Shown: positions 5,155-38,153 of the stretch, piece after piece
Position numbering within the stretch: the stretch's first letter is position 1
Layout: every line of letters starts with the position of its first letter
Assembly: GCF_943193155.1 (NCBI RefSeq)
Contig: NZ_CALPDB010000004.1
Location: 62,001-126,000, forward strand
Origin: Veillonella intestinalis
GTDB lineage: Bacteria; Bacillota; Negativicutes; Veillonellales; Veillonellaceae
DNA: 64,000 bases
Reading direction: 5' to 3'
Notes under the pieces: model-generated
Databases searched by the model: none
What the model was told of the DNA's origin: nothing
Seen by the model: only the letters and a program-made list of their open reading frames with translations
Program-made: the position numbers and the translations under genes

Positions 5155-5435
5155 ATAAAGATATCGTCGACGAACAGGAAGAGTAATTATAAGAGTTCGG
5201 CTACAGCGAGTCGGGAATGGTGGGAGCCTGATGCAAGAGTTTATAATGAATGGACCTGGGAGACGTGGCCCGAACTTTGGTAGGCGCCACCGGTCATCTC
5301 CGACCGTTAACAAAGGAGCGCGTATCGCCTATGGGTAGGCCGTACGTAGTGAGCCGGGTCTTTATGACCAATTGGGGTGGCACCGCGGATAACCTTCGTC
5401 CCTAGATTTTCTGGGATTGAAAGGTTTTTTTTATA
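5155..5435 (+). promoter_or_regulatory. T-box leader with UGG (tryptophan) specifier
   Basis: A classical T-box transcription-attenuation leader. The 5' side of the specifier loop has AGTA (about 5181-5184). The opposite side reads GAATGGACC near 5248-5256, giving UGG followed by a purine, as expected for a Trp specifier. The T-box core TGGCACCGCGG is at 5378-5388. A terminator stem (AACCTT ... AAGGTT, about 5391-5426) is followed by a run of eight T. Uncharged tRNA-Trp should stabilise the antiterminator and switch on the downstream importer. The leader class is certain by motif; the amino acid assignment rests on my reading of the specifier. Confidence 0.88.
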
Positions 5436-9388: not shown

Positions 9389-9454
9389 AGTTATATAGCG
9401 CCGGTTACCTGATATAAATTGAAATATAATTAATAGATAGCGATTCAGAAAAAT

Positions 9455-9525
9455 AAAAACATCCTTTAACTATTGTCATGAAGTTCACGTTGAATACGTG
9501 ACGACATATAGTAAAGGATGTTTTT
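9455..9525 (+). terminator. long terminator hairpin after hisK
   Basis: AAAAACATCCTTT pairs with AAAGGATGTTTTT, continues as ACTAT/ATAGT past one bulge, and encloses a small inner hairpin (CACGT/ACGTG). The 3' arm ends in T5. It could work in either direction. Confidence 0.8.
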
Positions 9526-9604
9526 GTATATATGGCTTTAGGAGGTTCTGGCTTACTCACCTATGTTTTCGTTTATAGAGATAGGAGATGTTAGGGGATA
9601 TGAC

Positions 9605-9691
9605 TATAAGAATATAAAGATGTAAGAATATAAGAGTATAAGGATAAAGAGTATAAAGGCATAAAGATATAATAATATAAAGGTATAAGAA
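9605..9691. repeat. 8-bp tandem repeat, consensus TATAARRA
   Basis: Eleven consecutive near-copies of TATAAGAA/TATAAAGG (one of them 7 bp) run from 9605 to 9691. The repeat merges into a perfect 16-bp inverted repeat (9675-9690 with 9698-9713, 7-base loop) that has no T-tract. It lies between the hisK terminator and the his promoter. No ORF is present. Confidence 0.7.
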
Positions 9692-9748
9692 CATAGGTCT
9701 TATACCTTTATATGACTGGAAGGCATAAAATCTATGCGTAATATTATA

Positions 9749-9777
9749 TTGACGAAGTGTGTCTTACAGTGTATTAT
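9749..9777 (+). promoter_or_regulatory. promoter of the his operon
   Basis: TTGACG (9749-9754), 17-base spacer, TATTAT (9772-9777). The leader to hisZ would be about 125 bases. I saw no T-box and no His-rich leader peptide in it. Confidence 0.65.
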
Positions 9778-9910
9778 ATCTTTAACACTTTAGTTAGATG
9801 AAGTGATAAAGAGTTAAATGCAAGATTAAAATTTAAGTAGTAGTCACATTATCATTTCTATTTGATGATGTATATAGATAGGCAGTACGAGTAAAGAGAG
9901 GGTTTGGGAT

Positions 9911-11068
9911 ATGAAACAAAAACGCTTGCCTCAAGGCTTTCGTGATGAGTTTGGTGAGGAAGCGCAGAAGAAGGCGCTCCTTAGCAATTTATTATCGAAA
10001 TGCTTTTACAAACGAGGATATACAAAAATTATAACACCTTTAATTGAATATAAAAATGTCTTTGATGATTATGATTTAGCCATTCAACAAAAGCTCTATG
10101 AATTGGTTGATAGTTCGCAAGAGCGTTTAGTTGTGAGACCAGACTTAACCTTACCAATTGCGCGGTTTTTATCCAACATACAAGTAAGCTTGCCCACTAA
10201 ATTTTACTATATTGGTGACGTGTTGGCTATGAATCAGGCTCACCGTGGCTGGGCAAATCAAGTGACACAGGCGGGCATTGAATTAGTTGGTTATGAGTCG
10301 AATCGAGCTGAACTGGAATGTTTGCTAGTTATCAATCAAGTAAATCGATTGTTATTAAATAATCGCCTGTATTTAGAATTAAGTGATGCTCGTTTTGCTC
10401 CTGCGATTGTGGAAGCCTTAGGCTTAACGGCTGATGAGGAAGAGACCTTGTTTGATGCTTTATTCAATAAGAATTTGCCACGGTATGAAACGATTATTGA
10501 AAGTTATGCTGAAAATGCTTTATATCCGCTTTTAGTGGTTTGGCCTCGTTTATTTGGCTCTGTAGAAGAAGTACAGCAAGAGTTAAATCAAGTGATTTTA
10601 CCCATGACAGCCCAACGAATTGTCAATCAATTGATGGATTTAGCGAAAACGGTACAACATATGTCAAATCAGCAGGTTCGCCTTGATTTAAGTAGTCGAC
10701 CACCGCAGCCGTATTATACGGGCTTGACCTTTAGAGGTTATGTTGATGAAGTGGCTAGCTATATTGTCAGTGGTGGCCGATATGATCGTTTGTTAGCTAA
10801 TTTTCAAAAAGAACCTACTTGTGCTGTAGGCATGGCTTTTGATTTAGATGTGCTAGCTCAAGTAGCTGAAATGGAAGTGCCGAAAGCTAAACCAGTGCTA
10901 GTTTATTATGAGCCAACTGCCTGGCCTAAAGCAGCTGCGTATTTAGTGAATCATCCGGCGTATAGCTTAGTGCTAGCTGATAGTTTGGAGGACGCACGAC
11001 GTCAGGCGGAGCGTGAAAATGCTGTATTATATGTAGTCACTGAAGAAGGAGTGAGTGAAGATGCTTAG
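9911..11068 (+). CDS. hisZ: ATP phosphoribosyltransferase regulatory subunit
   Basis: Histidyl-tRNA-synthetase-like protein without tRNA-charging function, required as partner of the short form of HisG. The 385-aa sequence has class II synthetase motif 2 (RPDLTLPIARF, about residues 77-87) and motif 3-like GGRYDRLL near residue 296, and lacks the HisRS anticodon-binding domain. It is the first gene of the main his operon and overlaps hisG by a few bases. The pairing with a 205-aa HisG in the next gene strongly supports HisZ over a genuine HisRS. Confidence 0.92.
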   Translation: MKQKRLPQGFRDEFGEEAQKKALLSNLLSKCFYKRGYTKIITPLIEYKNVFDDYDLAIQQKLYELVDSSQERLVVRPDLTLPIARFLSNIQVSLPTKFYYIGDVLAMNQAHRGWANQVTQAGIELVGYESNRAELECLLVINQVNRLLLNNRLYLELSDARFAPAIVEALGLTADEEETLFDALFNKNLPRYETIIESYAENALYPLLVVWPRLFGSVEEVQQELNQVILPMTAQRIVNQLMDLAKTVQHMSNQQVRLDLSSRPPQPYYTGLTFRGYVDEVASYIVSGGRYDRLLANFQKEPTCAVGMAFDLDVLAQVAEMEVPKAKPVLVYYEPTAWPKAAAYLVNHPAYSLVLADSLEDARRQAERENAVLYVVTEEGVSEDA

Positions 11069-22101: not shown

Positions 22102-23043
22102 ATGAAAGGAACGATGATTAATATGAGTACAAAACCTGTAAATGATACATTACAATTAATTGGTAATACGCCAGTTTATCAAATTGGTGATTCTAATGTA
22201 TTTGTAAAATTAGAAAAATATAATGCTGGTGGTAGCGTTAAAGACCGTGCTGTATATGGCATGTTAAAAGATGCACAAGAAAAAGGTTTGATTAAACCAG
22301 ATACTATTTTAGTAGAAGCTACATCTGGTAATACTGGTATTGCTTTAGCTATGTTAGGTGCAGTATTGGGTATTAAAGTAGTTATCTTAATGCCTGAAAG
22401 CATGAGTAAAGAACGCCGTGAGTTAGTAAAAGCGTATGGTGCACAGCTTATTTTGACACCAAAAGCAACGGGTATGAAAGGGGCTTTGGCAAAAGCACAA
22501 GAAATTTTAGATGCTAATCCAAGTGCTGTTACATTAGGCCAGTTTGTGAACCCTGCTAACCCTGGTATTCACTATGAAACAACAGCTACAGAAATTATTG
22601 AACAAGTACCTAATGTAGGTATCATAGTTGCTGGTGTTGGTACTGGTGGTACTTTTACAGGGGTTGCTCGTAAATTAAAAGAACAGAAAGCGGATGTGAA
22701 AGCCGTTGCTGTTGAACCAGCTGGTTCACCTATGATTTCTGAAGGTAAAGGTGGCGCTCACAAAATTCAAGGTATCGGTGCTGGCTTTATTCCAGAAAAC
22801 TTTGATAAATCCCTTATGGATGAAGTGGTAACAGTTACTGATGATGATGCTATTGCACAAGTTCAGACTTTCATGCGTGAAAGCGGCATTAGTATTGGTA
22901 TTTCTGCTGGTGCAGCTATTAAAGTTGCCAAAGATTTAGGCGCTAAAAATCCTGGCGTACCAGTAGTAGCGATTGCTCCAGATGGAGTAGAAAAATATTT
23001 ATCTATGCTTGAATTTGATGACGTAGAATATGTAAAAGCTTAA
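22102..23043 (+). CDS. cysK: cysteine synthase (O-acetylserine sulfhydrylase)
   Basis: PLP enzyme making cysteine from O-acetylserine and sulfide. It shows LIGNTPVYQ, the PLP-lysine region GGSVKDRAVYGM, the substrate loop TSGNTGIALAM and the cofactor phosphate loop GVGTGGTFTGVARKLK. Length is about 310 aa, normal for CysK. The start is uncertain: ATG at 22102 is used here, but the in-frame ATG at 22123, with AAAGGA 12 bases upstream, agrees better with family N-termini. Controlled by the Cys T-box and followed by cysE. Confidence 0.94.
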   Translation: MKGTMINMSTKPVNDTLQLIGNTPVYQIGDSNVFVKLEKYNAGGSVKDRAVYGMLKDAQEKGLIKPDTILVEATSGNTGIALAMLGAVLGIKVVILMPESMSKERRELVKAYGAQLILTPKATGMKGALAKAQEILDANPSAVTLGQFVNPANPGIHYETTATEIIEQVPNVGIIVAGVGTGGTFTGVARKLKEQKADVKAVAVEPAGSPMISEGKGGAHKIQGIGAGFIPENFDKSLMDEVVTVTDDDAIAQVQTFMRESGISIGISAGAAIKVAKDLGAKNPGVPVVAIAPDGVEKYLSMLEFDDVEYVKA

Positions 23044-30313: not shown

Positions 30314-30751
30314 TTACGCTCTTTTATAGGTGTTCACTAAGTAATCAATAGCTTGATTATAGCCAGCTACACCTTGACCCATAATAATTTTTTCAGCATA
30401 TTCACTTACATAGGAATGGTGGCGAAAGGTTTCACGTTCTTTAGGATTGGAGATATGAACTTCTACCGTAGGTAGGTGAACGGCTTTTAAGGCATCTAAG
30501 ATAGCAATAGAAGTATGGCTATAGGCGGCGGGATTGATTATGATAGCATCTACATCAAAACGAGCCGCTTGAATGCGATCGACTAAGCTACCTTCATGAT
30601 TGCTTTGATATAAACTTACTGAAATGCCAAGGGACTCTGCGTATTCCCGCAGTTGATGGACTAAATCCTCGTAGGTGGTTGAGCCATAGATTTCAGGTTC
30701 TCGTAGACCAAGTAGATTAATATTAGGACCATTAAGAATTAAAATGTGCAT
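30314..30751 (-). CDS. aroQ: 3-dehydroquinate dehydratase, type II
   Basis: Third step of the shikimate pathway. The 145-aa protein begins MHILILNGPNINLLGLREPE and has the catalytic Tyr in EIYGSTTYEDL, QSNHEGSLVDRIQ, IIINPAAYSHTSIAI and VEVHISN, all typical of the dodecameric type II enzyme. GAGGAGG lies before the ATG at 30751; five extra in-frame codons upstream are ignored. It overlaps the end of the AroE-AroK gene by 20 bases and is the last gene of the cluster. Confidence 0.95.
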   Translation of the reverse strand: MHILILNGPNINLLGLREPEIYGSTTYEDLVHQLREYAESLGISVSLYQSNHEGSLVDRIQAARFDVDAIIINPAAYSHTSIAILDALKAVHLPTVEVHISNPKERETFRHHSYVSEYAEKIIMGQGVAGYNQAIDYLVNTYKRA

Positions 30752-31991
30752 GATATTCCTCCTCAATGTGCTGAGCCCCTTCTTCTGGGTTTGTGAAATC
30801 TACTGCGTATTGTGAAAAAGCAGTATATAAAGGTTCGCGTTTGTTATAGAGTGCTTCTAAAGCCTGAAGGCCTCCTTGGGAGAGGGGACGATTATCAGTG
30901 GCTAGACTCGTTAATGGACGACGGAGCCAATAGATACGACCATTTTGGCGTAGGGCTAGATAATTTTCAGGACGAGTTACAACGCCTCCGCCAGTAGCGA
31001 TAATAGCGCCGGTTGTTTTGCATAGCTCTTGTAATAAGGTGGTTTCTTTTTTACGGAATTCAGCTTCACCATGGGTAGCAATATATTCGCCAGGATGGCT
31101 ATAGCGCTTTTCAAATTCAACATCACAATCAATTAGTGGTCGTTTAAATTGGTTAGCTAAGCTTTGCCCCACTGTGGTCTTACCAACCCCAGGCATACCA
31201 ATAAGAATGATATTTTCTTGTTTTTTTCGCAGATTAGTAATAATTTTTTCTGTTTCTTCAGGACCAAAGGTTGTGTTTTGGAATAAAGTGGCGGCTGCCA
31301 CAGCTTGTCCCACGAGCATAGGTAGACCATCGCTATAAGGAATTCCTTTTTGCTCGGCTTCCATGAGTAAAGCGGTACGATACGGATTATATACTACATC
31401 TACAACGCCACTAAGATTGGTGAAATCAGCTAAGGAAATTAACTGGTCAGGGCAGTTAGGATACATCCCTACGGGTGTTGTATTAATGATTATATCTGTA
31501 TCTTGGCCGTGCTGTGGTGCGTCTTCATAGAAAGGAGACGCTTTGCGGGATAAATGTACGATTTCACGAGCACCTAAATCTTCAAGGGCAATGTGAACGG
31601 TATGAGAGGTAGCTCCATCACCAAGGATAAGTATTTTCTTATGTTTTACAGTAATGTGAGCCCGTTGTAACATGAAAATAAAACCATCGTAATCTGTATT
31701 ATGACCGTACCAACTGTTATCGGCTTGACGTACCATGGTATTGACACAGCCAATGCGCTTAGCAGTGTCAGATAGACTTTGACAGGCACTCATTACATCT
31801 TGTTTGTATGGAATTGTTACATTAAGGCCCTTTAATTCAGGCTGTGCTAGAAATTGTGCTAACTCATGTGGTGAGCGTTCAAAGAGCGTATAGGCCGTAT
31901 TGCCAAGGGCTTTATGAATTTCAGGGGAGTAGCTGTGCCCCAAGGTTTTGCCAAGTAGGCCATAGGGACTGAGCAATGGTGTTTGACTCAT
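30732..31991 (-). CDS. aroEK: shikimate dehydrogenase - shikimate kinase fusion
   Basis: One 419-aa protein covering two pathway steps. Residues 1 to about 255 are AroE: GLLGKTLGHSYSPEIHKAL, LNVTIPYKQ, NTDYDGF, then the NADP-binding ILGDGATSHT, which is less Gly-rich than the usual GxGGxx. Residues about 258-419 are AroK: P-loop IGMPGVGKTTVG, shikimate-binding DCDVEFEKRY, FRKKE, ATGGGVV and the lid Arg in ATDNRPLSQ. The order follows the reaction sequence. The start is 2 bases after aroC with AAAGGAAG upstream. I infer both activities are present since no separate aroE or aroK is seen here. Confidence 0.93.
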   Translation of the reverse strand: MSQTPLLSPYGLLGKTLGHSYSPEIHKALGNTAYTLFERSPHELAQFLAQPELKGLNVTIPYKQDVMSACQSLSDTAKRIGCVNTMVRQADNSWYGHNTDYDGFIFMLQRAHITVKHKKILILGDGATSHTVHIALEDLGAREIVHLSRKASPFYEDAPQHGQDTDIIINTTPVGMYPNCPDQLISLADFTNLSGVVDVVYNPYRTALLMEAEQKGIPYSDGLPMLVGQAVAAATLFQNTTFGPEETEKIITNLRKKQENIILIGMPGVGKTTVGQSLANQFKRPLIDCDVEFEKRYSHPGEYIATHGEAEFRKKETTLLQELCKTTGAIIATGGGVVTRPENYLALRQNGRIYWLRRPLTSLATDNRPLSQGGLQALEALYNKREPLYTAFSQYAVDFTNPEEGAQHIEEEYHAHFNS

Positions 31992-31993
31992 GG

Positions 31994-33109
31994 TTACTTC
32001 CTTTCGCTAGTAGTAGCATCAAATTGTATATTGTTATCTAATAAAAAATCTAATAGAACTAAGGCGGTAACAGCTTCGACAACAGGTACGGCACGGACTG
32101 CAATACAAGGGTCATGGCGACCTTTAATTTGAAGGTCTACATTTTCTTGCTTGTCATAACTGAAACTTGGTTGTACTTTAGCAATAGAAGCTGTTGGTTT
32201 CATGCCAACTTGAAGAATTAAAGGCATGCCATTAGTAATGCCACCTTGGATACCACCACTATTATTATTCAACGTACGAACGATTCCGTCCTCTAACATA
32301 AAGGGGTCATTTTGCTCGCCACCAGTGCTAAGACAACCTTCAAAACCACTGCCAAAGGCAACGCCTTTTACACCAGGAATGCCAAAAATTGCTTGGGATA
32401 AGCGATTTTCAATGCCATCAAAGTTTGGATTGCCAAGTCCTGCTGGTAAGCCCGTAGCAAATACTTCAATAATGCCACCAGTAGAATTACCAGCTTGACG
32501 TAGTTCGTCAATATAAGTAATAGCTCGTAGCCGTTCTTGCGGAGAAATCATCGCTACTGTTTCTAAACCAGCTTTTTGTAAATCTGCCATAGCGGGTTTG
32601 GTGAAGCTGATTGGTTTATCTTTAATAGGACCAATTTGTCGTAAATGAGCGCCTATTTCAATGCCCTTTGCTTTTAAAATTTGTAAGGCCACACCGCCAG
32701 CACAGCAGAGTGGCGCTGTTAAGCGCCCTGAAAAGTGACCGCCACCACGCATATCTACTGCTTCGCCATAGCGCATACGAGCGGTATAGTCTGCATGGGA
32801 AGGGCGTGGCACATCGCGTAGATTATTATAATCTTTGGAGTGTTGATTGGTATTTTCAATATAAAAGGCAAGAGGGGAACCACTTAATTGGCTGTTTACA
32901 AGGCCCGCTAAAAAGTGAGGTTTATCAGCTTCTTTGCGTTGCGTGGTTACTAAACTTTGCCCAGGGGCACGACGTTTCATAAAGCGTAAGAGTGCGCTTT
33001 CATCAATGGTAAAACCACAAGGGAGGCCATCTACGACGGCTCCAATAGCGGTGCCATGAGAGGCGCCAAATACGGAAATTTTAAGATTTTTACCAAAACT
33101 AGAGCTCAT
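31994..33109 (-). CDS. aroC: chorismate synthase
   Basis: FMN-dependent last step to chorismate. The 371-aa protein has FGASHGTAIGAVVDGLPCG at the N-terminus, RRAPGQSLVTTQRKE, RPSHADYTARMRYG, the family motif GGGHFSGRLTA, and SGGIQGGITNG with the C-terminal RHDPCIAVRAVPVVEA. AGGAGG precedes the ATG. The preceding 162 bases to aroA are AT-rich and may hold a separate promoter, but I could not identify one. Confidence 0.95.
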   Translation of the reverse strand: MSSSFGKNLKISVFGASHGTAIGAVVDGLPCGFTIDESALLRFMKRRAPGQSLVTTQRKEADKPHFLAGLVNSQLSGSPLAFYIENTNQHSKDYNNLRDVPRPSHADYTARMRYGEAVDMRGGGHFSGRLTAPLCCAGGVALQILKAKGIEIGAHLRQIGPIKDKPISFTKPAMADLQKAGLETVAMISPQERLRAITYIDELRQAGNSTGGIIEVFATGLPAGLGNPNFDGIENRLSQAIFGIPGVKGVAFGSGFEGCLSTGGEQNDPFMLEDGIVRTLNNNSGGIQGGITNGMPLILQVGMKPTASIAKVQPSFSYDKQENVDLQIKGRHDPCIAVRAVPVVEAVTALVLLDFLLDNNIQFDATTSERK

Positions 33110-33271: not shown

Positions 33272-34561
33272 CTATTTCGTTTTTATAGCGTCGCCACCAA
33301 GTTGATTCCAGTGTTCAAAAAATAGGGGATAGGATTTGTTAATAGCATCACTATCGGTGATGGTAACGGGCTCTTCACTGATAAGCGCCATTAATGTAGC
33401 GGCCATTACTAGGCGATGATCGTTATGGGAATGCACCGTACCTCCCAAAAGACGCCCTGTACCAGTAATATATAAATTATCCCCTTCCACTCGTGCTTCG
33501 CCACCTAAGGTAGCGACCAATTCTTCGACGGCAGCAAGGCGATCAGACTCTTTCAAACGAAGTCGCTCACCATTCATAAACCAGCTTTCCCCTTCAATAC
33601 TGCAAGCAAGGGCTGCTAGTACAGGGAGTAAATCAGGGCATTGTTCTAAATCTACTGTAATAGGGCTAAGAGCATGACCTGAACAATGTAAATTTGAGGA
33701 CATGTTGTCATTCTGCCATGTTACGGTGGCACCAGTGGAGGTAATAATATCTATAATGCGTTTATCAGCTTGGGTAGAGTCTGCTTGCAGATTAGTAATT
33801 GTTAGGGTGTTACCTGTCATAGCTGCTGCTACGAGCCAAATGGCACTATTAGACCAATCTCCTTCAATAGGATAGTCTTGACGACCTTCGTAGTGTTGTT
33901 TGGATGGTACTGTAAATGTATTGCCATCATCACTTACTGTGGTTAAGACGCCAAAATCAGCCATAACTTTACGGGTTAATTCTACATAGTCTCGAGATTG
34001 TAGGGCTGTAGTGCTATGAATGGTTACAGGTGCTATTTTAGGGGCTGCTAACAGTAAGCCAGAGAAAAACTGGCTGCTAACATTGCCTACCATTTCAAAG
34101 GTACCACCTTTAAGCTTACCAGTCATAGTAAAGGGTGGTTTAGGCGCTGAAAAGCGAACACCATGGTCTTCTAGTTGACTTTTTAACGGCTCTAGCGGGC
34201 GCTCAGGTAAACGACCTGCGGCTGTGACGTTAGTTGATTCACTAAGGGCTGAACCGACTGGTAAAAGTAATCGCAAAGTTGTACCCGATTCATGAGCATT
34301 AATTGTTGTGTTTTGAATTGTTTCTGATTGCGCAATAGGGGTTACAGTTACACCTGTCGCTATTTTTTCTATGTGAGCGCCTAAACCTTGCAAGGAGGCA
34401 ATGGTTGCATCAATGTCTTCGGAATAATGCGCAATAATAAGTGAAGATGGACTATCGGCTAAGGCGGCGGCAATTAAAGCTCTATGTGCATGGGCTTTAG
34501 CTGGAATAGCCGCGATAGTACCATGTGGAACGGCTTGTTTGATTGTGGTGGATATAGGCAT
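33272..34561 (-). CDS. aroA: EPSP synthase (3-phosphoshikimate 1-carboxyvinyltransferase)
   Basis: Joins PEP to shikimate 3-phosphate. The 429-aa protein carries ESGTTLRLLLP, GRLPERPLEPL, GNVSSQFFSGLLLAAP, LKESDRLAAVEE and HNDHRLVMAAT. The N-terminal substrate motif is unusual: AKAHAHRAL at about residues 21-29 where most homologues have K-S-x-S/A-H-R, so the Ser after the conserved Lys is Ala. The AAGGAGG site lies in the end of aroB and only one base separates the two genes. Confidence 0.93.
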   Translation of the reverse strand: MPISTTIKQAVPHGTIAAIPAKAHAHRALIAAALADSPSSLIIAHYSEDIDATIASLQGLGAHIEKIATGVTVTPIAQSETIQNTTINAHESGTTLRLLLPVGSALSESTNVTAAGRLPERPLEPLKSQLEDHGVRFSAPKPPFTMTGKLKGGTFEMVGNVSSQFFSGLLLAAPKIAPVTIHSTTALQSRDYVELTRKVMADFGVLTTVSDDGNTFTVPSKQHYEGRQDYPIEGDWSNSAIWLVAAAMTGNTLTITNLQADSTQADKRIIDIITSTGATVTWQNDNMSSNLHCSGHALSPITVDLEQCPDLLPVLAALACSIEGESWFMNGERLRLKESDRLAAVEELVATLGGEARVEGDNLYITGTGRLLGGTVHSHNDHRLVMAATLMALISEEPVTITDSDAINKSYPLFFEHWNQLGGDAIKTK

Positions 34562-34562
34562 A

Positions 34563-35627
34563 TTACACCTCCTTAACTACATGGTTTGGTAATTCGTTAT
34601 GGGGAATGGTGACTAAATCACAATGGCCCCATTGGATAGGGCGAACGATAGTAATCGTTTCTCCTTGACTTTTTTTATCGTGCAAAGCTGCTTGGCATAA
34701 GTCAGATGCTGAATAGTCTGTGTGAATTGGTAAATTATGTTTAATCAGTAAGTCTAAAAATGCAGTAAGTTCTGCTTGGTTTAAATAACCAGCTTTATAA
34801 GCGGAACGCATCATGAGGGCCATACCAATACTGACAGCCATGCCATGTTTTATTTTGAAATGACTTAACTGTTCGATACCGTGACCAAAGGTGTGACCGA
34901 AATTGAGGAGCGCTCGAATGCCACTTTCTCGCTCATCTTGACTTACAATAGCTGCTTTAGCTTTCACACAAAGGGCAATAATTGATTCTATATGGGGTAA
35001 GTCACCTTGTTCTAATGGTTTGGTTTGTAAATCTTGTAATAATTCTGGATAGCCTAGCATACCGTACTTGATGATTTCCCCACAGCCATTAGCAAATTCT
35101 TCGGCTGGTAAGGTTTGTAATGTCGTAGGATCACAGAGTACGAGAATAGGTTGTTTAAAAGCACCCCATAAATTTTTACCGGCCGATAAATTGACTGCTG
35201 TTTTACCGCCGACAGAAGAATCTACCGCTGCGAGTAGGGAGGTAGGAATTTGCACATAATCAATGCCCCGTAAATAGGTGGCGGCAGCAAAGCCTGCCAT
35301 ATCACCCACTACACCGCCACCGAGAGCAATGAGTAAGTCCTTGCGAGTTAAGGCCTTTTCTGCCATATATTCCACTAAATGAAGGAGTCGTTGTGCATTT
35401 TTTTCAGTTTCTCCATGGGGAAATACATAGGTATAGACCGTATAGCCTGCTGATTCAAGTTGTGCTTTAACGCAGTCTAAATAGTGGGTTGCTACTAGAT
35501 CATCGCTGACAATAATGGTAGGTCGTGGACTTTTGAGAGGCTTAATATATTGGGCAATATGCTGGAGTGCTTCTTCTTCGATAATAACATCATAGGACGT
35601 AGAGGCATCGATGTGAATTCGTTCCAT
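34563..35627 (-). CDS. aroB: 3-dehydroquinate synthase
   Basis: NAD+- and metal-dependent second step of the shikimate pathway. The 354-aa protein has GGGVVGDMAGFAAATYLRGI (about residues 102-121), PTSLLAAVDSSVGGKTAVN, KNLWGAFKQP, the metal His in LNFGHTFGHGIEQ and HGMAVSIGM. AAAGGA precedes the ATG. It begins after a terminator that follows the DAHP synthase gene, so it is transcribed either by readthrough or from a separate promoter near 35660-35690. Confidence 0.95.
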   Translation of the reverse strand: MERIHIDASTSYDVIIEEEALQHIAQYIKPLKSPRPTIIVSDDLVATHYLDCVKAQLESAGYTVYTYVFPHGETEKNAQRLLHLVEYMAEKALTRKDLLIALGGGVVGDMAGFAAATYLRGIDYVQIPTSLLAAVDSSVGGKTAVNLSAGKNLWGAFKQPILVLCDPTTLQTLPAEEFANGCGEIIKYGMLGYPELLQDLQTKPLEQGDLPHIESIIALCVKAKAAIVSQDERESGIRALLNFGHTFGHGIEQLSHFKIKHGMAVSIGMALMMRSAYKAGYLNQAELTAFLDLLIKHNLPIHTDYSASDLCQAALHDKKSQGETITIVRPIQWGHCDLVTIPHNELPNHVVKEV

Positions 35628-35753: not shown

Positions 35754-36758
35754 TTACTTACTCAATACGTCGCGTAAAGCGAATACTTCTTTAGTAAGGG
35801 CGGCGAATTGGTCTGGACGTAGTGCTTGTGGTCCATCGCAAAGGGCTTTAGCAGGATCGATGTGAACTTCAATCATAAGGCCGTCAGCACCGCCACCAGT
35901 GGAAGCGAGCGATAAAGGTCGAACCATACGGCTCATACCAGCTGCATGGCTAGGGTCCATGATTATTGGTAAATGGCTAAGTTCATGAATCATAGGAATA
36001 GCGGTTACATCTAAGGTATTACGAGTTTTAGTTTCAAAGGTACGAATACCGCGTTCACAAAGGACGATTTGCGTATTGCCTTCACTCATGATGTATTCTG
36101 CAGCCATTAACCATTCTTCGTAAGTTGCGCTAAGACCACGTTTTAAGAGAACGGGTTTATTGAGCTTACCTACTTCTTTCAATAAGGTGAAGTTTTGCAT
36201 ATTTCGTGCGCCGATTTGAAGCATATCTACATCATCGAAGTATTGTAGTTGTGATGGGTCCATGACTTCTGAAACGATAGGTAGACCAGTTTCTTTTTTT
36301 GCTAAAATTAAGAGTTCGAGTCCTTCAGGGCCCATACCTTGGAAGGAGTATGGAGAGGTACGAGGTTTGAACGCACCGCCACGAAGAATAGTAGCACCCG
36401 CTTCTTTTACCGCTTTAGCTGTTGCAATTACTTGTTCTGGTGTTTCTACGGAACAAGGACCAGCCATGATGGCGAAGTGGCCACCACCGATTTTTACGCC
36501 ACTTACATCAACGACTGTATCTTCTGGATGGAATTTACGATTTGCTTTTTTGAAAGGCTCTTGAATGCGTGTTACTTTCTCAACAATATCAAGGGACTCG
36601 ATTTGTCGTTTGTCGAGTAGTGAAGTATCGCCAATTAGTCCGATGAGGGAGTAGTTGCTCCCTTGCACTGGGTGTAAGATAACACCTTGGGCTTCTAATT
36701 TAGCTGATAATTCTTGAATTTTCTCTGGGGTTGCATTTTCTCTTAGTGTGATAATCAT
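35754..36758 (-). CDS. aroF: DAHP synthase, type I-beta with N-terminal regulatory domain
   Basis: First step of the shikimate pathway: PEP plus erythrose 4-phosphate. The 335-aa protein has a ferredoxin-like/ACT-type domain (residues 1 to about 70), as in Thermotoga-type enzymes inhibited by Phe or Tyr, then the barrel: MAGPCSVET, LRGGAFKPRTSPYSFQG, QIGARNMQNF, LLKRG, CERGIRTFE, IMDPSHAAG and VHIDPAKALCDG. GAGGAGAG upstream of 36758 sets the start; an upstream in-frame ATG at 36812 lacks a ribosome site. The gene follows an aromatic leader-peptide attenuator. Confidence 0.95.
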   Translation of the reverse strand: MIITLRENATPEKIQELSAKLEAQGVILHPVQGSNYSLIGLIGDTSLLDKRQIESLDIVEKVTRIQEPFKKANRKFHPEDTVVDVSGVKIGGGHFAIMAGPCSVETPEQVIATAKAVKEAGATILRGGAFKPRTSPYSFQGMGPEGLELLILAKKETGLPIVSEVMDPSQLQYFDDVDMLQIGARNMQNFTLLKEVGKLNKPVLLKRGLSATYEEWLMAAEYIMSEGNTQIVLCERGIRTFETKTRNTLDVTAIPMIHELSHLPIIMDPSHAAGMSRMVRPLSLASTGGGADGLMIEVHIDPAKALCDGPQALRPDQFAALTKEVFALRDVLSK

Positions 36759-36859
36759 AGTAATCTCTCCTCTTTTTTCCGTAATGAATATTTGAAAATG
36801 TGTTTCTTCCATAATACTATCCTTCTATCTATCAAACATCATATCGTTATCAAGTATAC

Positions 36860-36898
36860 AAAAAGGGAGCCACCCGCGTGCACTACGGGTAGCTCCCT
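36860..36898 (-). terminator. attenuator terminator upstream of aroF
   Basis: AGGGAGC and CGGGT-side bases (36892-36898, 36886-36890) pair with 36864-36870 and 36872-36876 around one mismatch, giving a GC-rich 12-bp stem. On the minus strand it is followed by T5. It lies in the 5'UTR, about 100 bases before the aroF start, so it must be conditional. Confidence 0.9.
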
Positions 36899-36975
36899 AA
36901 CTATACTAAGCCATCAATGATACCTAAATCAGCGTAGCCCAAATAGTCCTTTACCCGTAGACTGGATAAAGAACC
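36883..36975 (-). promoter_or_regulatory. protector and antiterminator segments of the aromatic attenuator
   Basis: In the minus-strand RNA, segment 1 (36975-36964, GGUUCUUUAUCC) can form a 12-bp stem, three pairs being G-U, with segment 2 (36956-36945, GGGUAAAGGACU). Part of segment 2 (36960-36952, CUACGGGUA) is also exactly complementary over 9 bases to segment 3 (36891-36883, UACCCGUAG), the 5' arm of the terminator. Segment 1 covers the Trp-Phe-Phe codons of the leader peptide. Ribosome stalling there would free segment 2 to block the terminator. Confidence 0.87.
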
Positions 36976-37021
36976 AAAAATAGAAGTATTGGCTGTTTAA
37001 TGTGCTGATTTGCATACTCAT
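36929..37021 (-). CDS. aromatic leader peptide, 30 aa
   Basis: A 30-codon ORF with AAAGGAG about 9 bases before its ATG. The peptide reads MSMQISTLNSQ, then YFYFWFF, then IQSTGKGLFGLR and TGA. Seven successive aromatic codons (Tyr, Phe, Tyr, Phe, Trp, Phe, Phe) in a 30-residue peptide are very unlikely by chance, and their position exactly over segment 1 of the attenuator explains them. It senses charging of aromatic tRNAs. The peptide itself probably has no other function. Confidence 0.9.
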   Translation of the reverse strand: MSMQISTLNSQYFYFWFFIQSTGKGLFGLR

Positions 37022-37054
37022 TGTATTGGCTCCTTTCTAAAAGTGATTGCCAAC

Positions 37055-37083
37055 ATTATAAACCTATGTTTTTCATTTGGCAA
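37055..37083 (-). promoter_or_regulatory. promoter of the aromatic attenuator/aroF transcript
   Basis: On the minus strand TTGCCA (37083-37078), 17-base spacer, TATAAT (37060-37055). Start near 37048, about 27 bases before the leader ATG. Confidence 0.85.
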
Positions 37084-37124: not shown

Positions 37125-38153
37125 TTATTCCAAGTCATCAAAATCGAAGGCAGCTGCCTTAGTATAGTTTGTTACTTTTGCTTCAAAGAAGTCTGTTTTA
37201 GTGCTATTAAGATTGGAGAAACTTTCAATCCAAGCCATTGGATTTTCTTTAATTTCTGGATATAGCGGTTTAAGACCAATCGCATCAAGACGAAGGTTAG
37301 CTAAGTATTTAATGTAGCGTTCAATGAGAACATTATTAATACCGAGAATTTTGTCATCAGTAATATATTGGCCCCAAGCGATTTCATTTTCAGTACCTTG
37401 GCGAAGCATGTCTGTCAATTCTTCTTCTAATTCTGGGGTAAATAACTCAGGTCGTTCTTGACGAAGTTCACGAATAATGTTCTGGAATAATACAAGATGG
37501 GTTACTTCGTCACGATTGATATATTTGAAAATCGTACTAGTAGCGGTCATTTTACCTTGGCGCGCTAAGGTATAGAAGAAGCTGAAACCAGAGTAGAAGT
37601 AAATCCCTTCAAGGATGTAGTTCGCCATGATTGTGCGAATTAAGTTGTGTTCCGATGGATCATCGCTGAAGCGTTGGTAGATGTCAGCAATGAAGCGGTT
37701 ACGAGCCAAGAGGTGTTCATCGGTACGCCATTCGTCATAAATGCGGTCACGAGTAATCGGATTGGTTACGGTGTCCAAAATATAGGAATAACTTTGGGCG
37801 TGAATTTCTTCTTGGAATGCTTGAATATTAAGTAGTGACGCTACTTCAGCGGCCGTTACATAACGACTTAAGTTGGGTAAATTTTCACTTTGAATGGAGT
37901 CAAGGAAGTTGAGGAAAGAAATAATTTTATCGAAAGCGCGACGTTCGCTGTCAGTAAGGAATGGGAACTGTTTAATATCTTCGTTAAGTGAGATCTCTTC
38001 TGGAATCCAGAAGTTGTTAAGCATTGTGCGATAGAGGGTGGTAGCCCAATCGTATTTAATGCGGTTCCATTCGCGTAAGTTGGTGGTGTTACCGCCAATC
38101 ATACTTTCTGTGCCACGTTCGCCGTGTTCGTTAAAAATTAATTTTTTTTCCAT
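37125..38153 (-). CDS. nrdB: ribonucleotide reductase class I, beta subunit
   Basis: Houses the dinuclear metal site and tyrosyl radical of class I ribonucleotide reductase. The 342-aa protein keeps all expected ligands: Asp in FLDSIQ, Glu and His in QEEIHAQSY (with the radical Tyr four residues after the His), Glu in LEGIYFY, and Glu and His in RDEVTHL. The ATG at 38153 with GAAAGGG upstream is preferred to an in-frame GTG four codons earlier. It follows nrdA after 102 bases that contain a hairpin. Oxygen-requiring activation is known for this class. Confidence 0.94.
   Translation of the reverse strand: MEKKLIFNEHGERGTESMIGGNTTNLREWNRIKYDWATTLYRTMLNNFWIPEEISLNEDIKQFPFLTDSERRAFDKIISFLNFLDSIQSENLPNLSRYVTAAEVASLLNIQAFQEEIHAQSYSYILDTVTNPITRDRIYDEWRTDEHLLARNRFIADIYQRFSDDPSEHNLIRTIMANYILEGIYFYSGFSFFYTLARQGKMTATSTIFKYINRDEVTHLVLFQNIIRELRQERPELFTPELEEELTDMLRQGTENEIAWGQYITDDKILGINNVLIERYIKYLANLRLDAIGLKPLYPEIKENPMAWIESFSNLNSTKTDFFEAKVTNYTKAAAFDFDDLE

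Follow-up and report, generated by a model that had tools for sequence, protein, structure and literature searches.

A predicted ribosome-mediated attenuator with a YFYFWFF leader peptide upstream of the shikimate operon in a Veillonella-type bacterium

Described aromatic leaders and the aroF locus

In the E. coli pheA (pheL) and trp (trpL) attenuators, the position of the ribosome drives the choice among protector, antiterminator and terminator. The same logic is predicted at the locus described here, but the E. coli systems each respond mainly to their own end product and serve a branch pathway, whereas here a mixed aromatic cluster stands in front of the common pathway. According to the relevant passages of PMC11802643 (citing Neshat et al. 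2014) and PMC4046766, C. glutamicum aroF has the leader peptide aroR with Phe-Tyr-Phe upstream, and the experiments on aroR-aroF in those passages of PMC11802643 indicated that readthrough went up under Phe limitation and that Tyr availability had no effect. Our locus is similar in that an aromatic-codon leader lies 5′ of a DAHP synthase gene and stalling is proposed to raise transcription, but aroR is actinobacterial, has a single FYF triplet and no Trp. Leaders of this kind are too short to argue homology, so the two are likened by function and no sequence kinship is claimed. The uORFC-13-1 motif, as described in the sections of PMC8632094 devoted to it, is a Phe-coding uORF predicted 5′ of Acholeplasma aroF, for which attenuation was proposed, and its 24 representatives come from Acholeplasma and environmental sequences only. 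It shares with our locus a Phe-codon uORF, a promoter and an RBS 5′ of aroF with an adjoining intrinsic terminator, but those sections give no alternative-pairing test, and the comparison is made by description. Some Firmicutes have His leader-peptide attenuators (PMC2965389, PMC9413887), and there too leader-peptide attenuation replaces T-boxes, but they carry His codons and belong to hisS/hisZ or his operons of Bacilli, Peptostreptococcaceae and Erysipelotrichales. In the open-licence literature, which leaves subscription journals mostly outside, we found no description of aromatic attenuators 5′ of aroF in Negativicutes or Clostridia. The mechanism class is a textbook one, and what appears to be new is its breadth in these two groups, apparently undescribed.

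The window (the whole stretch of 64,000 nt analysed here) comes from a genome of 2.03 Mb. Among named relatives, Veillonella sp. R32 is the nearest (AroF 98%), ahead of V. ratti (93%) and V. parvula (84%), a species whose isolates are naturally competent (PMC5397411); the genome is assigned to the V. ratti side of Veillonellaceae. An earlier note on this DNA had listed a promoter, AAAGGAG, a 30-codon ORF with YFYFWFF, a 12-bp protector, a 9-bp antiterminator and a terminator, and we found all of them in the places given, nearly base for base (Table 1). The short translatable ORF with its RBS sits between promoter and terminator, its cluster of codons for pathway end products is kept in relatives, and the protector hairpin begins in or just after these control codons. 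The antiterminator is exclusive with both protector and terminator, with marginal single-sequence significance, and the intrinsic terminator is located 5′ of the first structural gene. All 12 protector pairs are standard (3 of them G-U) and all nine antiterminator pairs are Watson-Crick. A ribosome-mediated transcription attenuator of the classical type thus controls the shikimate operon with high probability.

Table 1 Predicted leader elements and shikimate operon genes (window coordinates)
Feature	Position	Strand	Remarks
Promoter, sigma-70-type, TTGCCA-17-TATAAT	37055..37083	-	11/12 consensus positions; -35 at 37083-37078, -10 at 37060-37055
RBS AAAGGAG	37030..37036	-	8 nt 5′ of leader ATG; kept in all aligned genera
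Leader peptide ORF MSMQISTLNSQYFYFWFFIQSTGKGLFGLR	36929..37021	-	30 codons + TGA; ATG 37021, stop 36931-36929
Control codons TAC TTC TAT TTT TGG TTC TTT (YFYFWFF)	36968..36988	-	cluster in 27/27, exact composition variable
Segment 1, 5′ strand of protector stem	36964..36975	-	within Trp-Phe-Phe-Ile codons
Segment 2, 3′ strand of protector stem	36945..36956	-	overlaps antiterminator strand
Antiterminator 5′ strand CTACGGGTA	36952..36960	-	partner 36883..36891
Antiterminator 3′ strand TACCCGTAG	36883..36891	-	within terminator 5′ arm and loop
Intrinsic terminator	36860..36898	-	stem 14 bp (36898-36864), loop 7 nt, then U run
aroF, DAHP synthase	35754..36761	-	NF006421 486.6 bits (cutoff 335); TIGR01361 393.7 bits (cutoff 267.75)
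aroB, 3-dehydroquinate synthase	34563..35627	-	operon member
aroA, 3-phosphoshikimate 1-carboxyvinyltransferase	33272..34561	-	operon member
aroC, chorismate synthase	31994..33109	-	operon member
aroE-aroK, fused shikimate dehydrogenase / shikimate kinase	30732..31991	-	both domains under curated cutoffs
aroQ, type II 3-dehydroquinate dehydratase	30314..30766	-	operon member

There are two in-frame ATGs for aroF on the minus strand, at 36812 and 36761, and the latter is the likely start; it has the better RBS (GAGGAG) and agrees with the V. parvula start. On the same strand, an inverted repeat, TTGCCAA (37083-37077) and TTGGCAA (37053-37047), flanks the -10 region, and V. parvula-type leaders have TGGGT...ACCCA around the -10 in its place. 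The TTGCCAA/TTGGCAA repeat is a possible operator for some repressor.

Conservation within Veillonellaceae

The family set consisted of 28 Veillonellaceae genomes, 27 of which had DAHP synthase, and G014 had only a KdsA-like match. Second DAHP synthase matches with low identity were interpreted as KdsA and disregarded, with a kdsB-like gene just 5′ and NCBIfam tying the family to KDO8P synthase. All 27 genomes with aroF had an ORF orthologous to MSMQISTLNSQYFYFWFFIQSTGKGLFGLR, with an aromatic cluster and followed by a terminator, and in the aligned leaders of the relatives TTGC and a TATAMT-like -10 held their position. The clusters included YFYFWFF, YFYFGFF, YFYWFF, FFWFF, FYWFF, FFGFF, YAYFWYF, YFFWYYFF and YAYFNF; Phe was present in 27/27, Tyr in 22/27 and Trp in 24/27.

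The pairs were then counted on an alignment of 24 distinct rows, with slid positions as controls. Paired cells made up 98.2% for the protector (controls 35-62%), 93.9% for the antiterminator (22-40%) and 97.9% for the terminator (35-61%). Compensatory changes were clearest in the terminator, where 5 pairs had changed on both sides and the covariation score was matched by 0/500 shuffles; the antiterminator is nearly invariant in the family, so its covariation is thin. RNAalifold on the family alignment recovered protector and terminator unprompted. This conservation check showed that the cluster and the three pairings were kept across four genera, with the divergent G007 less clear.

The C-terminal FIQxTGKELFxLR of the peptide is also well conserved in the family, as could be expected if the ORF encoded a functional small hydrophobic protein and lay 5′ of a terminator by chance. 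But this stretch is at the same time both protector strands, so RNA pairing of the protector explains its conservation, and outside the family the peptides share little but aromatic content; we consider a functional protein very improbable.

Divergent members are instructive about the attenuator itself. G002 has a different antiterminator, GTAAGGAT, which pairs exactly, and at an unchanged distance, with ATCCTTAC located in the loop and 3′ arm of the terminator. In G007 the protector around the aromatic cluster is quite another one, AACUUUAU with AUAAAGUU, and the antiterminator candidate is just 6 bp and does not overlap it. Divergent members such as G002 would thus retain the switch logic with other letters, with G007 less certain. 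A leader covariance model was searched against 61 genomes of the order, and it gave one sense-strand match 5′ of aroF in 26/28 family genomes (E 1e-17 to 1e-29) and nothing in the order's other three families. Weaker extra matches were antisense to the same leader, except one in G021 (E = 6e-4), and the two family genomes missed were G007, with its divergent leader, and G014. The latter, a Veillonella-group genome, is without DAHP synthase and also without the leader; aroF and leader appear to have been lost jointly, and the organism is probably an aromatic auxotroph.

At our locus, nrdB lies on the same strand and ends at 37125, about 230 nt 5′ of the terminator hairpin with no strong terminator between, as would be the case if the hairpin were the nrdB terminator and the aromatic ORF incidental. 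However, a promoter and an RBS separate nrdB from the ORF, and aromatic ORFs recur 5′ of aroF in other classes. Opposite-strand genes intervene between nrdB and leader in V. parvula and V. tobetsuensis, nrdB is missing from the 2 kb upstream in V. caviae and an uncultured Veillonellaceae genome (L108, L109), and in all of these the leader and terminator stay with aroF. Since the leader stays with aroF when nrdB is not its neighbour, the terminator is more than an nrdB terminator, and this explanation is most unlikely. The cluster and the three pairings persist in relatives and the leader travels with aroF, and at the level of sequence this supports the ribosome-mediated attenuation proposed in the earlier note.

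Chance expectation, folding and the proposed switch

Runs of 7 aromatic codons did not occur in any of 40 first-order Markov simulations of the window. The real window has one out-of-frame aromatic run, WYWWYFY at 22638 within cysK, which was rejected as a leader peptide for being an out-of-frame reading of that gene, and the five-codon motif TWYTWYTWYTWYTGG occurred 12 times genome-wide compared with 8 for the reversed control. Because of the cysK run and these counts, an aromatic run alone is weak evidence, and the case for the predicted attenuator is carried by the place of the run, the RBS, the pairings and the conservation combined. The genome-wide hunt for further leader peptides was done by patterns and families. 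The 9-bp antiterminator of this sequence, taken alone against shuffled leaders, gave p = 0.044, and single-sequence p values across the family members ranged from 0.016 to 0.65.

RNAfold of 36980-36860 gave the protector and the terminator at -52.8 kcal/mol (z = -6.07), and 0/200 shuffles were as good. Between these two hairpins (window 36955-36900, minus strand), UAUUUGxGCUAC and GGCUUAGxAUAG are both well conserved and could form a hairpin containing the stop codon. This middle hairpin folds in most members, but it was left out of the claimed attenuator because its z-scores are modest and RNAalifold gives no support.

To model the ribosome, we folded partial transcripts ending at 36880 after deleting the RNA that it would cover, on the assumption that its leading edge reaches 11-13 nt beyond the first A-site base. 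The antiterminator probability was 0.40 without ribosome and 0 when the ribosome stood at the stop codon, and it was 0.58-0.83 for stalling at Tyr1-Phe2, 0.89-0.98 at Tyr3-Phe6 and 0.64-0.86 at Phe7, which means that the codons in the middle of YFYFWFF would be best placed to free the antiterminator in this model. With the 3′ arm present, the terminator had a probability of 0.96-0.98 in every ribosome case. The terminator is stabler once segment 4 is transcribed, so, as with attenuators of the classical type, the choice would be kinetic. Measured more crudely over the family, mean sequestration of that terminator's arm by the leader was not above that of shuffled leaders in most members, and this we regard as a limit of the modelled folding evidence. 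Duplexfold of leader versus terminator was an uninformative comparison, because gapped duplexes form with any sequence.

We therefore describe the switch as follows, on the basis of predicted pairings. When charged Phe tRNA (and Tyr or Trp tRNA) runs short, the ribosome would stall in YFYFWFF and cover segment 1, so that the protector is blocked. The freed segment 2 (CTACGGGTA) would pair with TACCCGTAG once this is transcribed, the terminator would not form in time, and the polymerase would continue into aroF-aroB-aroA-aroC-aroE/K-aroQ. With ample aromatic amino acids, the ribosome would reach the stop at 36931 and mask segment 2, or the protector would re-form after release; the terminator could then fold and most transcripts would stop at about 36860, as terminated leaders some 200 nt long. 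Phe would be the most constant signal, with Tyr and Trp probably modulating. A Veillonella-type bacterium thus very likely tunes its whole aromatic pathway by test-translating a leader peptide rich in Phe, Tyr and Trp.

Leaders outside the family and an apparent division with T-boxes

Beyond Veillonellaceae, 19/20 aroF upstreams of two sister families had an aromatic leader ORF. The sister-family peptides are longer (typical of one family is IEYVFTYFSWGYFYFSAGYF), and their terminators differ, with complementarity of the ACATGAG/CTCATGT type or the TGATGAGTC/GACTCATCA type. In other Negativicutes the count was 21/40, and in Selenomonadaceae-like genomes no leader was seen and aroF seems to follow pheA. 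We also took 80 named-genome loci by AroF similarity, and 64 of these best 80 AroF loci had an aromatic leader ORF, including Clostridium, Peptostreptococcus and many uncultured Clostridia. At least 6 aromatics in 8 residues were found in the 300 nt upstream for 61% of Clostridia-type loci, compared with 0.7% when dinucleotides were shuffled, 0.4% in other windows and 0% in reverse complements. Leader-terminator complementarity reached p <= 0.05 in 14/69 non-family loci with leader and terminator (3.5 expected), but the loci outside the family are related to one another, so these counts are not independent. Several non-family loci have leader-terminator helices of 12-14 bp with unrelated sequences.

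The leader ORFs of the sister families and Clostridium often end in Met-Ser or Met-Arg (ATGAG..., loci L044-L063, L135, L158, L160, L177 and L182), complementary to CTCAT of the terminator loop. This ending looks like an RNA constraint that resembles peptide conservation.

T-boxes were searched in the genome containing the window and gave 14 matches, 10 of them above the cutoff, and the two T-boxes in the window were confirmed. So wide a use of T-boxes, together with a well-structured leader RNA, would suit a ligand- or tRNA-binding riboswitch (T-box or novel aptamer) with an untranslated ORF. But the T-box model RF00230 had no match at 36860-37083 and no Rfam family matches the leader, the best being STnc150 with 20.2 bits, where the gathering score is 60. 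The conserved parts are moreover the RBS, the start codon and the aromatic codons, and the cluster stays aromatic while changing (YFYFWFF, YFYWFF, FFWFF, YAYFWYF, YFFWYYFF), which makes a riboswitch highly unlikely in comparison with leader-peptide attenuation. The STnc150 match and a Thr_leader match on the opposite strand of L021, both sub-threshold, were taken as chance.

A T-box in the window (5161-5406, plus strand) lies 5′ of genes resembling an ECF-type transporter operon (CDS from 5459), a possible sign that an amino acid or some related compound is imported. Upstream of the his operon, 9389-9911 (plus strand) is about 500 nt of AT-rich DNA with short ATAAGAATATAAGA-like repeats, and we saw neither a T-box nor a His-rich ORF there. 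The literature offers HisR as a candidate for control of this operon.

Outside the window, a T-box with the canonical AAGGTGGTACCGCG core stands directly 5′ of trpE (G000:C4:192433-192774, locus L200; 64 bits, sub-cutoff). The gene pheA (G000 C1:217299) was checked for a leader as well; its upstream gap is only about 100 nt, and we noticed no aromatic ORF in it. With a leader at aroF, a T-box at trpE and no leader seen at pheA, the common pathway therefore appears to be controlled by leader peptide and the Trp branch by T-box. TRAP (mtrB, PF02081) was found in 0/100 Negativicutes genomes including this one, and the B. subtilis positive control was matched. The earlier note's expectation that Firmicutes prefer T-boxes or TRAP does not hold for aroF; our comparison suggests that aromatic leader attenuation is common in Negativicutes and Clostridia and not exceptional in Firmicutes.

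Which amino acids are read is less clear. The same note took the leader to read Phe, Tyr and Trp together, and this stands for Phe, but Tyr and Trp are missing from some family clusters and Trp was present in just 13/59 Clostridia-type clusters. Trp is not fixed in the sensor, and Trp sensing is the weakest part of that account. Within the attenuator, it could be that Phe (or Phe and Tyr) codons alone matter and the Trp codon is incidental: the family and Clostridia-type counts, the separate trpE T-box in the same genome, and the response of C. glutamicum AroR to Phe and not Tyr in the passages of PMC11802643 cited above all favour this. But TGG is retained in 24/27 at a site where a stall would best free the antiterminator, and since proteins contain little Trp, finding it in so short a cluster is suggestive. 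We regard an incidental Trp codon as well possible, if not quite probable. The comparison otherwise suggests that DAHP synthase leaders of Negativicutes and Clostridia as a rule carry mixed aromatic clusters, and the mixed Phe/Tyr/Trp cluster raises the question whether three signals are integrated or in effect Phe alone is read.

We lean towards the view that Negativicutes and much of Clostridia by default control the common pathway through aromatic leader-peptide attenuation of DAHP synthase. It would be kept over long evolutionary times by codon content and exclusive pairing despite complete sequence turnover, and the Trp branch would be left to T-boxes. If this is true, Rfam-type searches would miss such leaders because of that turnover, and the comparison suggests that lack of sequence conservation is why the device has mostly escaped notice. 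For the Veillonella group, a Firmicute with a Gram-negative wall would have a complete trp-operon-style switch governing the enzyme at the entry to aromatic synthesis, and the aroF leader beside the trpE T-box would mean that sensing is split in one cell, with a leader peptide for the common pathway and T-boxes for the branch.
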